A DNA stretch of 50,355 nt, from the NCBI GenBank assembly GCA_030840805.1, contig JAVEDU010000090.1:1-50355 (forward strand), written 5' to 3'. The first letter of the stretch is position 1; each line of letters opens with the position of its first letter. This stretch comes from Actinomycetota bacterium (GTDB taxonomy: Bacteria; Actinomycetota; Actinomycetes; Mycobacteriales; HKI-0501). Position numbers and translations under genes: made by a program. Positions 4,933 to 50,355 of this stretch are shown here, piece after piece. The notes below the pieces were generated by a model. That model ran no database searches, was not told where the DNA came from, and saw nothing but the letters and a program-made list of their open reading frames with translations.

Positions 4933-4990
4933 CGGCACCCCGGCGGTGCGGCCCGGCCCGCCCGCCGGAGTGCGCCGACGGCACGTCCGC

Positions 4991-5030
4991 GGTGACGACG
5001 CCCCGCCCGCGGTGACGCCGCCCCGCCCGC
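4991..5030. repeat. 20-bp tandem repeat, two copies
   Basis: Two adjacent 20-nt units (4991-5010 and 5011-5030) of the form GGTGACG(A/C)CGCCCCGCCCGC differ at one base. Confidence 0.8.
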
Positions 5031-5051
5031 CGGGGTACCCGGCATCTCGGC

Positions 5052-5099
5052 GGTGCGGCCGGGCCCGCCCGAGACGGTGCGGCCGGGCCCGCCCGAGAC
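5052..5099. repeat. 24-bp tandem repeat, two identical copies plus a partial third
   Basis: Units 5052-5075 and 5076-5099 are identical, starting GGTGCGGCCGGGCCCG and ending CGAGAC. A decayed third copy begins at 5100 (GGTGAGGCCGG). Confidence 0.85.
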
Positions 5100-5143
5100 G
5101 GTGAGGCCGGCGGCGCGGCGGCGGATCGATCGCGGCGGCGGAT

Positions 5144-5178
5144 CGGCTCACCCGGGACGTGCCGCCCCGGGTGAGCCG
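5144..5178. terminator. Bidirectional-looking terminator hairpin
   Basis: A perfect 13-bp inverted repeat (arms 5144-5156 and 5166-5178, 9-nt loop) lies between convergent uvrB and the minus-strand gene ending at 5363. It could end either transcript. Confidence 0.6.
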
Positions 5179-5362
5179 GGCGCCCCCGATGAGCTGGGCG
5201 CCCACGCAGCGGCCGGGCGGCGTGGCCGGGCGGACCGGGTCGCCCGGACCGGCCCCGACGGCCGGGTTGCGCCCCGCGACCAGTTGTCCCGCGCGACCGG
5301 CCACCTCGCGCGATCAGCTCTCCGGAGCGGTCGGCTACGCCGCGACCAGCCGCCTCCCGCGG

Positions 5363-5893
5363 TCAGGCGCCGGCCGAGGCGGACGCGCTGGGCGTCGGGA
5401 CGCTCGGCGCGGTTCCGCCGTCACCGGGCTGACCGTGCCGCCCGGGACGGCCGTGCCGCTCGCCGGCCCCGTCCCCGCCCCCGCGCTGCCCGCCTTCCCA
5501 GCGGCCACCGCGGTCGCCGAAGTCACGGCCGTGCCCACCGCGATCACCGCGGCCGCTCTCGCCGTCGTGGCCCACGGCGAACGCGCCCAGCGGCAGGACG
5601 AGGAACACCAGCATCGCGGCCGCGACGAGGGCACCGACGCCGACCGGCGTGCGGGCCCAGCCCGCGAACCGGCGCCGCCGGCTCGGCACCGGCGCGGCCG
5701 GTGCGGCGTCGGCCGTCGCGGACGTGGCGGCCGGGTCCTCGGTCGGGGTGGCCGTGGCGGCCGGAATTCGGGTGGTCGGGGCCTCGGCCGCGGTCGGAGT
5801 GGCGGCCGGCACGGCGGACCCCTCGGCGGTGGGTGCGTCCGGGTCGGGACGCCCGGCGGGCGTGCCCTCGTGCGGACTCGGGGGTGTGGTCAC
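5363..5893 (-). CDS. Single-pass membrane protein with disordered flanks, unknown function
   Basis: This 176-residue protein has an N-terminal Ala/Pro/Thr-rich disordered region of about 75 residues, then a basic patch ('SRRRRFAGWAR'). A membrane helix follows at roughly residues 86-107 ('GALVAAAMLVFLVLPLGAFAVG'), and then a Gly/Arg/Asp/His-rich tail, probably outside the cell. I recognise no catalytic domain. The GTG start at 5893 is chosen because GGAGGAG lies 5 nt upstream on the minus strand; an in-frame ATG 33 nt earlier has no such site. A three-repeat response-regulator-like box lies about 75 bp upstream, so the gene may answer to a two-component signal. The charged tail may bind metal or surface polymers, but that is only a guess. 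Confidence 0.65.
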   Translation of the reverse strand: MTTPPSPHEGTPAGRPDPDAPTAEGSAVPAATPTAAEAPTTRIPAATATPTEDPAATSATADAAPAAPVPSRRRRFAGWARTPVGVGALVAAAMLVFLVLPLGAFAVGHDGESGRGDRGGHGRDFGDRGGRWEGGQRGGGDGAGERHGRPGRHGQPGDGGTAPSVPTPSASASAGA

Positions 5894-5945
5894 GGTTCTC
5901 CTCCATGGGGATCGGTCGATCTCCATGGTCGGCCACCACGGCCCC

Positions 5946-5951
5946 GAACTA
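5946..5951 (-). promoter_or_regulatory. Candidate -10 for the minus-strand membrane protein gene
   Basis: On the minus strand this reads TAGTTC. The expected -35 position (around 5969-5974) falls on the proximal repeat of the direct-repeat box, as in promoters activated by OmpR/PhoB-family regulators. Confidence 0.3.
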
Positions 5952-5968
5952 CCGCTTTCGGCCCGTTC

Positions 5969-5997
5969 TCACAGCCGACTCTCAGCAGTTCACAGGC
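5969..5997. promoter_or_regulatory. Direct-repeat box resembling PhoP/OmpR-family operators
   Basis: On the plus strand TCACAGC (5969-5975) is followed, after 4 nt, by TCTCAGC (5980-5986) and then TCACAGG (5990-5996), giving a period of 10-11 bp. The first pair matches the known mycobacterial PhoP pattern TCACAGC-N4-TCACAGC with one mismatch. It lies between the ABM mono-oxygenase stop and the membrane-protein promoter. Which regulator binds it cannot be told from sequence. Confidence 0.5.
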
Positions 5998-6016
5998 TGC
6001 ACCCAGGTTCGCAGCG

Positions 6017-39127: not shown

Positions 39128-41616
39128 TGCGGGTCCCCCTGTCCTGGCTCGTGGAGGTCCTGCCGTCGCTCGACGGCCGGTCGCCGGAGGAGGTGGCCGA
39201 GCGGCTGATCGCCCTCGGCGTCGAGGTCGACGAGATCGAGACCACCGGTGCGTCCGATGTGGACGGTCTGGTGATCGGCGAGGTCCTCGAGATCGAGGAG
39301 CTGGCCGGTTTCAAGAAGCCGATCCGGTACTGCCGGGTCCGCGTGGCCGCATCCGGTGAGGACGCCGTCCGCGGGATCGTGTGCGGCGCCACGAACTTCG
39401 CGGTCGGTGACCGGGTGGTCGTCGCGCTGCCGGGCGCGCTGCTGCCCGGCGACTTCCGCATCACCGCCCGGACGACGTACGGGCAGACGAGCGACGGGAT
39501 GATCTGCTCCGCCCGCGAGCTGGGCCTGGGCGACGAGCACTCCGGGATCATGGTGCTGCCGCCGTCCGCCGAGCTCGGCGCCGACGCGATCGTGACGCTC
39601 GGGCTGCACGAGGCCGTGCTGGTCACCGAGCCGACCCCCGACCGCGGCTACCAGCTGTCGGTGCGCGGGCTCGCGCGCGAGCTGGCCGCCGCCGCGGACG
39701 CCGGGTACGCCGACCCGGCCGCGGTCGAGCCGGGGTTCACGGCGGGTGCCGGGTTCCCGATCGTGCTCGACGACCCGGCGGCCTGCGACCGGTTCACCGC
39801 GCGCATCCTCCGTGGGGTGAACGCCTCCGGGTCGAGCCCGCTGTGGATGCAGACCCGGCTCGCCCGGGCCGGGATGCGGTCCATCTCGCTCGCCGTGGAC
39901 GTGACGAACTACGTGACCCTGCTGCTCGGGCAGCCGATGCACGCGTACGACCTGAACCTGCTCGCCGCCCCGATCACGGTCCGCCGGGCCCGCGCGGGCG
40001 AGACGCTGGTGACCCTCGACGGCGTCGAGCGCACGCTCGCGGCCGGCGACGACCTGCTCATCACCGACGCCGAGCGGATCCAGGGCATCGCCGGCGTGAT
40101 GGGCGGTGCGCACAGCGAGGTGTCGTCCTCGACGACCGACCTGCTGCTGGAGGCCGCGCACTTCGACCCGCGGGTCACCAGCCGCGCGATGCGGCGCCAC
40201 GGCCTGCTCACCGAGGCCGGGCGCCGGTTCGAGCGCGGCGTCGACCCCGAGCTGCCGCCGGCGGCGATCGAGATCGCGACGAGGCTGCTGCTGGAGTACG
40301 GCGGCGGCACCGCCGAGGACATCGCCACCGACGTCGGCGAGCCGCGGCTGCCGGGCGGGGTTCCCACCGACCACCGCCGGATCGGGGACCTGGTCGGCGT
40401 CGAGTACCCGCCGGACACGGTGATCCACCGGCTGGAGCAGGTCGGCGCGCGGGTGCTCGTTCAGGAGGACGAGTCGCTCGAGGTCGTGCCGCCGTCCTGG
40501 CGCCCCGATCTGCTGGAGACCGCGGACCTCGCCGAAGAGGTCGCCCGGCTCGAGGGGTACGACGCGATCCCGTCCGTCCTGCCGCCGGCCCCCGCCGGCC
40601 GGGGGCTGACCGCGTCGCAGCGCCGCCGCCGCGCCGTGGCCCGCGCCCTGGCCCACGGGGGCGCGGTGGAGAACCGCTCCTTCCCGTTCCACTCGGCCGA
40701 GGTGCTCGACCGGTTCGGGCTGGCCGCCGCCGACCCGCGCCGCCGGCTCGTCGCGCTCGCGAACCCGCTGTCCGCCGAGCAGGCGTACCTGCGGACCACG
40801 CTGCTGCCCGGCACCCTCGCGGCGCTCGCCCGGAACGTCGGGCGCGGCGCCGAGGACGTCGTGCTGTTCGAGACCGGTCTGGTGTTCCGGGAGCCCGCCA
40901 CCGGGTCCCGGCCGCCCGCGCCGGTCCTGCCGGGAGCCCGCCGCCCCACCGGGGACGAGCTGGCCGCGCTCGACGCCGCCCTGCCGGAGCAGCCCGAACA
41001 CCTCGCCGTCGTCTTCGCCGGTGCGGTCGAGCCGTCCGGCTGGTGGGGTCCCGGGCGCGCCGCCTCGTGGGCGGACGCCGTGGACGCGGTCCGGCTCGTG
41101 CTGGACACGGCCGGCGCCGAGTACACGCTGCGCGCCGCCGAGCAGGCGCCGTGGCATCCCGGCCGCTGTGCCGAGGTGCTGGTCGACGGCGTGGTCGTCG
41201 GGCACGCCGGTGAGCTGCACCCGCAGGTGTGCGAGGTGCTCGGACTGCCGCGTCGCACCGCCGCGGCCGAGCTCGACCTCGGGGCCGTGCTCGCGGCCGC
41301 GCGGGACGAGGCCACCGCGCCCGCGGTGTCGGCGTTCCCGCCGGCCTCCCAGGACGTCGCGCTGATCGTCGACGCGACGGTTCCGGCCGCCCGGGTCGAG
41401 GCCGAGCTGCGGGCGGGCGCCGGCGACCTGCTGGAGGACATCCGGCTGTTCGACGTCTTCACCGGCCCCCAGGTCGGCGAGGGGCGCAAGTCGCTGGCGT
41501 ACACCCTGCGGTTCCGCGCCCCGGACCGGACGCTGACGGTCGAGGAGACCACCGCCGCCCGGGATTCGGCGGTCGGCTCCGCGGCCCTCGCGGTCGGCGC
41601 GGTACAGCGCGCATGA
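39127..41616 (+). CDS. pheT: Phenylalanyl-tRNA synthetase beta subunit
   Basis: This 829-residue beta subunit begins 'MRVPLSWLVEVLPSL' and carries an EMAP-like tRNA-binding OB fold (about residues 40-150). B3/B4 editing domains ('SLAVDVTNYVTLLLGQPMHAYDL', 'GVMGGAHSEVSSSTTDLLLEAAHFDP'), a B5 domain and the catalytic-like core follow. The C-terminal ferredoxin-fold anticodon-binding domain ends in 'SLAYTLRFRAPDRTLTVEE'. The ATG overlaps the pheS stop and its own stop overlaps the next gene (ATGA). Confidence 0.98.
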
Positions 41617-42410
41617 GCCGGATCGCGCTGGTCACCGGGGCGAGCCGCGGGATCGGGCGGTCCGCCGCGTTGGCGCTGGCCGGTGCCGGCTGGGACGTCG
41701 CCTGCGGTGCCAGCACGGCCGACGGCGCCGCGGAGACCGCCGAGCGGTGCCGGGCGCTCGGCCGGCGGGCCATCGCGGTCGGGGGCGACGCCGCCGACCC
41801 GCTCGCCGTCGAACGGGTCGTGGCACAGGTCGTCACCGAGCTCGGCGTACCGACGTTCGCGCTGCCGGCGGCGGGGCTGATCGACGCCGCCGAGGTACCG
41901 CTCTGGGAGGCCGACCCCGCGGACTGGTGGCGGGTGGTCGAGGTGGACCTGCGCGGTCCGGCGCTGCTCGCCCGCGCGCTGATCCCCCGGATGCTCGTGG
42001 CGGGGGAGGGCCGGCTGCTGTTCGTGGGCAGCGGCTTCGGGCTGCGCGCGGTACCGGTCAACTCGGCGTACGGGGCGTCGAAGACCGCCCAGTCCCGGCT
42101 CGTCGAGCATCTGTCGCTGGCGCTGGCGGACACCCCGCTGCGGGCGTTCGACGTCTCGCCCGGCGCGGTGCTGACCGACATGACCGCGTCGCTGCCGATG
42201 TTCGACGGCAAGGACGACTGGACGCCGGTGGAGCGGTTCTGCGCCGTCGCGGTCGCCGTGGCGGCGGGGGAGCTGGACGTGCTCGCCGGGCGGTTCTTCC
42301 ACGCGGGCAAGGACGACGCCGCCGCGCTCGCCGCCGCGGTACCGGGCTGGGACTCCGACGTCCGCAAGCTGCGGCTGCGGCCGTACGGCGAGGACGACCC
42401 GACGGCCTGA
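41613..42410 (+). CDS. Short-chain dehydrogenase/reductase (SDR) family protein
   Basis: This 265-residue oxidoreductase has the cofactor motif 'VTGASRGIGRSAALALAGAG' at the N-terminus, a likely catalytic Ser in 'LLFVGSGFG' and the active-site 'YGASK' twelve residues on. The substrate is unknown. Its ATG overlaps the pheT stop by 4 nt, so it is translated with the synthetase operon, an odd partner. A palindromic element and the argC operator follow. It could be a housekeeping reductase carried along by position. Confidence 0.88.
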   Translation: MSRIALVTGASRGIGRSAALALAGAGWDVACGASTADGAAETAERCRALGRRAIAVGGDAADPLAVERVVAQVVTELGVPTFALPAAGLIDAAEVPLWEADPADWWRVVEVDLRGPALLARALIPRMLVAGEGRLLFVGSGFGLRAVPVNSAYGASKTAQSRLVEHLSLALADTPLRAFDVSPGAVLTDMTASLPMFDGKDDWTPVERFCAVAVAVAAGELDVLAGRFFHAGKDDAAALAAAVPGWDSDVRKLRLRPYGEDDPTA

Positions 42411-42601: not shown

Positions 42602-43618
42602 ATGGGTCTGCAGGTGGCGATCGCCGGTGCCAGCGGCTACGCGGGTGGCGAGCTGCTGCGCCTCGTCGACGCGCACCCCGATCTCGACCTCGGGGTGATC
42701 GCGGCGCACGGTCAGGCCGGCCGCCCGCTGCGGGAGGTGCACCCGCAGCTCGTGACGCTCGGCGACCGGGAGCTGGTCCCGACCACGGCCGAGAACCTCG
42801 CCGGCGCCGACCTCGTCTTCCTCGCCCTGCCGCACGGCGCGTCCGCGGCCGTCGCCGCCGAGCTCCCGGCCGACGCGAAGATCGTGGACCTCGGCGCGGA
42901 CTTCCGGCTCGTCGACGGCGCCACCTACGAGCGGTACTACGCGACCCCGCACGCCGGCACCTGGACGTACGGGCTGCCGGAGCTGCCGGGCGCGCGGTCC
43001 GCCATCGCCGCGTCCACCCGGATCGCGAACACCGGCTGCTACGCCGTCGCCACCACGCTCGCCCTGGCGCCGCTGATCGCCGCGGGCATCGCCGAGCCCG
43101 CGGACGTGGTCGTGACCGCCGCGTCGGGCACCTCCGGCGCGGGCCGGTCGGCGAAGGCGCACCTGCTCGGCAGCGAGGTGATGGGCGACCTCAGCCCGTA
43201 CAAGGTCGGCGCGCACCAGCACGTACCGGAGATCAAGCAGGCGACCGGCGCCCGGTCGTTGTCGTTCACCCCGTTCCTCGCGCCGATGCCGCGGGGCATC
43301 CTCGCCTCGGTGTCGGCCCGGCCGGCCCGGACCGGCACGACCGCGGCCGACGTCCGCGCGGTGCTCGCGGAGGCGTACGACGGGGAGGCGTTCGTCCACG
43401 TGCTCGCCGAGGGGAGGTGGCCGCACACCGGCGCGGTGTCCGGCAGCAACTCCTGCCACCTCCAGGCCACCGTCGACATCGACTCCGGCCGGATCGTCGT
43501 GGTGAGCGTGATCGACAACCTGGGCAAGGGCGCGGCCGGCCAGGCCGTGCAGAACGCGAACCTCGTCCTCGGGCTCGACGAGACCGCGGGCCTCGCGGTC
43601 CACGGGATCGCGCCGTGA
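42602..43618 (+). CDS. argC: N-acetyl-gamma-glutamyl-phosphate reductase
   Basis: This 338-residue NADPH enzyme carries out the third arginine step, reducing acetylglutamyl phosphate to the semialdehyde. The cofactor loop is '[16 protein letters not shown]', the active-site Cys is in '[19 protein letters not shown]', and '[15 protein letters not shown]' is conserved. The ATG at 42602 is chosen because AGGAGG lies 4 nt before it; the GTG at 42599 is too close to that site. It heads the operon behind the ARG-box-like sites, and its stop overlaps the next gene (GTGA). Confidence 0.97.
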
Positions 43619-44177
43619 CGACCCCGCTGCCCGAGGGGTTCACCTCCCTGGAGAGCGAGGGCACCCGGCTCATCGTGTGCGGCGGCCCACGCAACGACGC
43701 CGCGGGGCTCCTTCCGGACGAGGAGTGCCCGGACCTCCTCTGGACGCGCCAGGTCCTCACCACCCACCGGCTGACCGCCGTGGTGCTGGCGCCGAGCGTC
43801 TTCGACCGGGGCCCGGTGGGCTTCGGCGACGTCCACGAGCTGGCCGAGCGCATCGCCGCGGAGCTCGGCCTCGGCGCCATCGACGTCGGGGTGATCGGGA
43901 TCGGTGCCGCCGAGGCGCATCTCGCGAGCGTGCCCGGCGACGGGTACGTCGTCACGGCCACGGTGACGGTGGAGACGGCGGCCACCGCGGTCGTCGTCAC
44001 CACCGACGCGCAGGTGGCTCCCGGCGCGATGACCGACATCCTCGCCACCCTGCCGCACACCGGCGTCCGGCTGATGCTCGCGTCCGGCGCGTCCACGGTC
44101 ACCCCGCGCGCGGACGAGGTCGCCGCCCTGGCGACCACGGCGTTCGCCCACGCCCTCGCCCTGTACGGAGCCGCCTC

Positions 44178-44181
<4 letters not shown>
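43615..44181 (+). CDS. Shortened, probably inactive ArgJ-like protein in the argJ position
   Basis: This 188-residue protein occupies the place of argJ (argC-argJ-argB). It aligns with the first half of ornithine acetyltransferase: residues 6-9 'PEGF', 41-58 '[18 protein letters not shown]', 67-96 and 122-132 (including 'VVTTDA'), then 'LMLASGAS' at 153-160. ArgJ is about 400 residues. Missing or changed are SGGAN, the oxyanion-hole STG (here GIG at 95-97), the KGAGML stretch, the STNDT block and the entire C-terminal ~200 residues. An Ala-Thr pair (123-124) survives at the autocleavage position. GTGA overlaps at both ends are intact, so it is still translated. Either a decaying argJ or a reused fold. 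Confidence 0.8.

Positions 44182-50355
<6,174 letters not shown>

Follow-up and report, generated by a model that had tools for sequence, protein, structure and literature searches.

The window analysed here, the whole 50,355-nucleotide stretch of contig JAVEDU010000090.1 from an Actinomycetota bacterium (GCA_030840805.1), contains an arginine operon with the gene order argC, J188, argB, argD, argF, argR, argG and argH. J188 is the name used here for a 188-codon open reading frame (ORF) in the slot between argC and argB, and the named genes all scored above their NCBIfam cut-offs. The features of the operon are as follows.

42602..43618, plus strand: argC (TIGR01850, 369 bits, cut-off 233.6)
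43615..43618, plus strand: GTGA overlap of the argC stop and the J188 start, read from the sequence
43615..44181, plus strand: J188, predicted catalysis-free ArgJ domain 1, 188 codons, GTG start at 43615 and TGA stop at 44181 (from ORF, alignment and model)
44178..44181, plus strand: GTGA overlap of the J188 stop and the argB start, read from the sequence
44178..45089, plus strand: argB (TIGR00761, 258 bits, cut-off 151.3)
45086..46264, plus strand: argD (NF002874, 606.5 bits, cut-off 457)
46270..47196, plus strand: argF, start approximate (TIGR00658, 365.5 bits, cut-off 280.85)
47202..47744, plus strand: argR, start approximate (NF002880, 234.3 bits, cut-off 200)
47741..48955, plus strand: argG (NF001770, 572.8 bits, cut-off 334)
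48948..50354, plus strand: argH, without a stop before the window end (TIGR00838, 583.2 bits, cut-off 279.5)

The 188-residue ORF in the argC-argB slot, with GTGA overlaps at both ends, is as the first-pass annotation of this DNA had described it. The same annotation held that frame, operon coupling and base composition were kept, and the codon-position G+C of J188 (0.750/0.543/0.968) does match that of argC (0.749/0.533/0.982). Upstream of argC, a short-chain dehydrogenase-like ORF occupies positions 41616-42410 of the plus strand (best NCBIfam score 112.6 bits, below cut-off), and the ORF on its other side from argC reads like pheT.

The operon slot, a phmmer match, profile comparison and the predicted fold together identify J188 as an ArgJ by descent. 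Of the 41 other genomes that J188 matched, 29 had their loci examined (L005-L033), and all 29 of these relatives carry an ArgJ in the interval from ArgC to ArgB; J188 is therefore the positional argJ. G001 and G002, the other two members of the family in the comparison, each have one full ArgJ, and it occupies this slot. J188 matched 42 of the 61 genomes searched, its own genome counted, a number that contains at least one false match away from argJ (G001, C1:3061760, the argJ of which is at C1:2189981). The first-pass annotation had made ArgJ kinship depend on a family profile match, and on this formal point the result went against it, as PF01960 gave no match to J188 at E<=10; the kinship emerges instead from the slot, the fold and two sequence comparisons, namely phmmer against the alpha chain of Mycobacterium tuberculosis ArgJ (PDB 3IT4; 1.1e-8, residues 18-101) and hhalign of J188 residues 1-178 against a profile of half-length and full-length ArgJ (98.2%, 5.7e-14). 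The NCBIfam ArgJ models, including TIGR00120, gave no match at E<=1 and their curated cut-offs were not reached, and a search of the genome contigs with J188 as the query recovered no relative. Membership of DUF2267 (PF10025) was rejected, with a score of 17.9 bits (E 0.0038) against a cut-off of 29.8.

J188 aligns to residues 1 to approximately 256 of the 383-residue full-length ArgJ, with eight internal in-frame deletions (6, 3, 2, 2, 16, 21, 6 and 14 residues, 70 in total) and approximately 127 residues missing at the C-terminus. The similarity described earlier for the N-terminal part is thus real, although it is not limited to that part. The reported lack of motifs and of the C-terminal half likewise stands as far as the catalytic positions are concerned, but the loss is not C-terminal only, because domain 1 is kept, domain 2 is lost and the loops are trimmed. 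The deleted segments are the STG oxyanion segment, the stretch that leads to TTD, the GAGMLA loop and the stretch before STNDT. We take positions 127, 128, Lys189, Glu280 and Asn399 in M. tuberculosis numbering as ArgJ catalytic positions. In J188, positions 127, 128, 280 and 399 are deleted, Lys189 is replaced by Thr and Thr200 by Ala (numbering by Ala199/Thr200 of M. tuberculosis ArgJ, as given in the available text of PMC5887547). All 43 full-length sequences in the comparison retain the oxyanion Thr-Gly, the Lys, the nucleophile Thr, the Glu and the C-terminal Asn. These deletions and replacements support the view that J188 cannot catalyse and, as had been proposed, would not recycle acetyl groups alone.

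The AlphaFold2 model of J188 had a pLDDT of 90.9 and a pTM of 0.89, a confidence that may be flattered by the presence of intact ArgJ in the input alignment of 43 sequences. When superposed on OAT2 of Streptomyces clavuligerus (1VZ6), 182 of the 188 residues were aligned (Z 20.9, rmsd 2.3), and the superposition was confined to 1VZ6 residues 8-259; one domain is therefore present nearly whole and the other is absent. According to the sequence alignment and the predicted fold, J188 is domain 1 of the enzyme and not a random half. A second tier of structure alignments to the model, with xanthine/aldehyde oxidase domains (Z 7-8), is taken as a common arrangement.

The search for a full argJ that the first-pass annotation had suggested returned a single ArgJ-family match above cut-off in the genome of the window, located on another contig (G000:C47:2076-3215; PF01960, 427 bits). 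The gene is full-length and scored 352 bits with TIGR00120, for which the cut-off is 298. Its closest solved relative is S. clavuligerus OAT2, at 518 bits over residues 3-380 versus 100 bits for the best M. tuberculosis ArgJ chain, and its protein shares 34-38% identity with canonical ArgJ in most relatives' loci. By these sequence criteria it is an OAT2-type ArgJ, and it would provide the step that had been expected to come from elsewhere; a genome without any ArgJ is ruled out by this complete gene. The neighbours of the gene are absent beside OAT2 in the 14 carrier loci compared (12 genomes, mostly 1.5-kb flanks), which fits horizontal transfer, and the gene was probably acquired in this way. 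The same genome also has a short-NAGS candidate (G000:C64:7413-7778) that scored 123 bits, below the 154-bit cut-off, as was the case in all 9 genomes searched. Such short NAGS have been described in actinobacteria with monofunctional ArgJ, according to the available text of PMC1382215.

OAT2-type genes are rare, with 14 carriers among 394 genomes of the class and 11 among 397 of the order. Twelve of the 14 carriers in the class sample belong to one genus, Nocardiopsis (named from one sequence that matches Nocardiopsis sinuspersici exactly), and for all 12 of these genomes PF01960 also finds a shortened ArgJ beside argC, matching from profile position 1 or 39 to 248-252. A scan of named genomes with 11 half proteins as queries, a sample that overlaps in species with the class sample, yielded 80 loci, in which the ORF of the argC-argB slot has 256-268 amino acids in 20, 383-385 in 59 and a broken frame in one (L083). 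When 49 of the 80 were tested for OAT2, it was present in 21 of 21 half-gene genomes, including L083 with a partial match, and in none of 28 full-length genomes. In 20 of the 21 genomes, the frame of the half gene is unbroken. In L083 (Nocardiopsis sp. CNR-923, 4990-6000), the half ArgJ frame is broken near its start and the OAT2 match covers only residues 89-380, which reflects either assembly errors or real loss.

The second domain is wholly gone from the Nocardiopsis half protein, Thr127 is lost in 17 of 20 sequences, Gly128 and Lys189 are kept in 20 of 20, and Ser or Thr is found at position 200 in 19 of 20. The same domain has been lost from J188, which also lacks the segments for which the model of the half protein has low confidence. 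In a tree that left out 14 loci whose ORF was not recovered, all 20 half proteins group as a single clade (UFBoot 100) within the full-length ArgJ of Nocardiopsidaceae, adjoining the ArgJ of N. potens, N. chromatogenes and N. halophila (support 84); the truncation in this genus is therefore one event and not 20. The best tree places J188 beside full-length ArgJ from the order of the window (L007 and L009), but its union with the Nocardiopsis half clade was not rejected (AU p 0.191). The J188 branch is very long, at 2.15 substitutions per site. The ArgC of the window has 67-73% identity to several relatives of its own order versus 52-57% to Nocardiopsis ArgC, and an origin of the arg operon from Nocardiopsis was ruled out on this basis. 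Since ArgC and ArgB of the window are both of the own order, transfer of the whole operon into this lineage appears unlikely.

Maximum-likelihood omega was 0.095 for the half gene (20 genes), 0.036 for ArgC (18 genomes), 0.037 for ArgB (20) and 0.058 for OAT2 (20), after L083 (broken frame), the partial ArgC of L080 and L086 and the partial OAT2 of L167 had been dropped from the codon sets. Median NG86 dN/dS, which is inflated by G+C bias and was used only for comparison from gene to gene, was 0.50 for the half gene, 0.25 for OAT2, 0.24 for ArgB and 0.19 for ArgC; in 16 Actinomadura it was 0.38 when only codons 1-254 of full ArgJ were compared. The constraint on the half protein is thus approximately 1.3 times looser than on the same part of a working ArgJ, and two to three times looser than on its neighbours. 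These codon comparisons indicate that the Nocardiopsis half gene is under purifying selection.

Another genome, G055 (L199), has OAT2 together with an operon ArgJ that is cut at profile position 269 and has approximately 281-293 amino acids, depending on the start. Its motifs are intact, and a new short tail follows the DAEGA motif. The nearest full-length relatives of this ArgJ, in G267 and G282, are accompanied by OAT2, so that OAT2 and full argJ are both present there. The truncation in G055 is clearly separate from the others and may show the process at an early point. Ten genomes with OAT2, of which nine belong to the order and the tenth is G549, retain a full argJ in the argC-argB slot, and OAT2 therefore allows truncation and does not force the loss. 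Among the genomes compared, which include the best PF01960 matches from 298 genomes of the order, no truncated argJ without OAT2 was found. The same PF01960 search gave no match in 9 of the 298 (e.g., G201, which is 99% complete, G071, G085 and G078). In two loci of one genus, L020 (G013) and L015 (G035), the ArgJ matches are split by approximately 300 and 240 extra bases at query residues ~120-141; ArgJ carries an insertion there, close to where the alpha chain ends.

Considering the above results, we propose that OAT2 displaced the catalysis of the operon ArgJ and that domain 1 was kept as a non-catalytic folded protein, most likely a pseudoenzyme that binds a partner, an explanation that as a whole we hold to be somewhat better than an even prospect. 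The displacement of ArgJ catalysis by OAT2 is the well-supported part. In the proposed sequence of events, the OAT2-type gene (here on contig C47) would have taken over acetyl transfer from acetylornithine to glutamate, and the operon ArgJ, freed from catalysis, would have lost its second domain and active-site loops. The folded domain 1 would have been kept and would still be translated through the coupling that links argC to argB; the resulting pseudoenzyme may be a subunit, structural or regulatory, that binds either OAT2 or one of the arginine enzymes encoded next to it. A hypothetical role as chaperone, decoy or regulatory subunit for ArgB/ArgD had been put forward in the first-pass annotation. 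We infer three things: the acetyl-transfer step is carried out by OAT2 in vivo, a stable protein is made from the window ORF, and this protein acts by binding. The half protein keeps Lys189 and Gly128 and J188 has lost both, and their functions may therefore differ. A broader idea, which we advance tentatively and judge slightly less probable than its negation, is that ArgJ domain 1 in general has a second, non-catalytic job in binding or regulation that becomes visible once OAT2 takes catalysis, as in the Nocardiopsis clade and the lineage of the window, perhaps beginning in G055.

The main rival holds that J188 is a spacer or a slowly decaying relic, a useless protein whose frame stays open only for translational coupling from argC to argB, as coupling weeds out stops and frameshifts and not amino-acid changes. 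The GTGA coupling at both ends of J188 and its very long branch agree with such a relic. Selection on J188 is not directly measurable, since it is known from one genome, and composition was used in its place. Without selection, the simulated probability of no stop in a frame of the J188 type was 0.29-0.90, in runs that started from the composition of the relatives and in which the null is too easily rejected; because stops are rare at this G+C even without selection, their absence says little. Neutral replacement was simulated from the window's own arg genes, and the difference between third- and second-position G+C was at or above the observed 0.426 in 24-29% of runs at 20% replacement, in 4-6% at 30% and in 0-0.3% at 42%. 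The test is not significant at 20% replacement (P 0.24-0.29) and a limited neutral phase of J188 is therefore possible, which leaves some room for the relic, but the unchanged codon-position pattern of J188 otherwise favours amino-acid constraint. The relic also sits poorly with the evidence from 20 genomes that the homologous half protein evolves under purifying selection, with deletions in J188 that respect the fold and with the confident model, and we regard it as possible but distinctly less probable than the retained partner-binding protein. That a protein has been retained is well supported for the Nocardiopsis half gene and probable for J188. The 'recent decay product' offered by the first-pass annotation has lost ground accordingly, since the Nocardiopsis arrangement is as old as the genus and under purifying selection and J188 is predicted to be well folded.

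A more specific alternative is that J188 and the Nocardiopsis half protein are regulatory subunits that bind and tune OAT2 in a mixed oligomer. This would account for the finding that, among the Nocardiopsis-clade genomes tested, the half gene and OAT2 strictly go together, and ArgJ is an A2B2 assembly according to the available text of PMC5887547, so that a domain-1 protein could enter. However, the same co-occurrence is expected if OAT2 merely permits truncation, and OAT2 belongs to a different sequence clade, with ~34-38% identity to canonical ArgJ; we consider this alternative doubtful, a little more so than the relic. That contig C47 is a contaminant, leaving the genome without a working ArgJ, is improbable: the contamination estimate is 1.3% and OAT2 is rare in the order, but the tetranucleotide correlation between C47 and the window (0.84-0.88) is like that between the window halves (0.88) and above that of the other genomes compared (0.49-0.83), if not by much, and the pairing in other genomes leads one to expect OAT2 here. 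Least credible is a normal argJ shortened by assembly or sequencing, a deletion that the first-pass annotation had allowed for and that is nearly excluded even in a draft of 111 contigs by eight separate in-frame deletions with a clean stop overlapping argB, by the lack of any further canonical ArgJ piece above cut-off in the genome and by the recurrence of the arrangement in many Nocardiopsis genomes that were assembled independently.

The preferred reading, displacement by OAT2 with domain 1 retained, describes a replicated natural experiment on what remains of a housekeeping enzyme after a horizontally acquired relative takes its reaction, the outcome being a gene that is reduced to one folded domain and held in the operon, not lost. 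Should domain 1 have an independent role, it would be shared by canonical ArgJ, including the ArgJ of actinobacteria in which the enzyme has been studied as a drug target (available text of PMC5887547 and PMC11206623). For annotation, the operon gene should not be taken as the ArgJ of these organisms. In open-access papers we found no literature on a truncated or catalysis-free ArgJ, subscription journals being outside the scope of the search.

J188 resembles the canonical actinobacterial ArgJ (PF01960, TIGR00120; M. tuberculosis Rv1653, PDB 3IT4) in operon slot, sequence kinship and domain-1 fold. In contrast, canonical ArgJ has approximately 383 residues and a second domain, and J188 has 188 residues, no equivalents of the oxyanion Thr-Gly, Lys189, Thr200, Glu280 and Asn399, and no Pfam or NCBIfam match. 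The half-length ArgJ of Nocardiopsis and Streptomonospora nanhaiensis (256-268 amino acids) shares with J188 the slot, the loss of the second domain at about the same point, an ATGA or GTGA overlap with argB and an OAT2 gene elsewhere in the genome. It is less trimmed, PF01960 still matches it (168 and 128 bits in the two tested), and it differs from J188 in having the equivalents of Gly128 and Lys189 in all 20 sequences. S. clavuligerus OAT2 (ORF6 of the clavulanic acid cluster, PDB 1VZ6) is like the C47 protein over its full length and like J188 in fold over residues 8-259, whereas J188 is not of OAT2 type by sequence, the two being 14-15% identical when aligned by structure; the C47 gene differs from its OAT2 homologues in that its tested neighbours are common to none of 12 other carrier genomes. 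Pseudoenzyme subunits are known more widely, for example as dead paralogues kept as regulators. J188 is like them in that the fold is kept, catalysis appears to be lost and the gene is kept, but here there is no active paralogue of the same clade, and the active enzyme is a distant relative.
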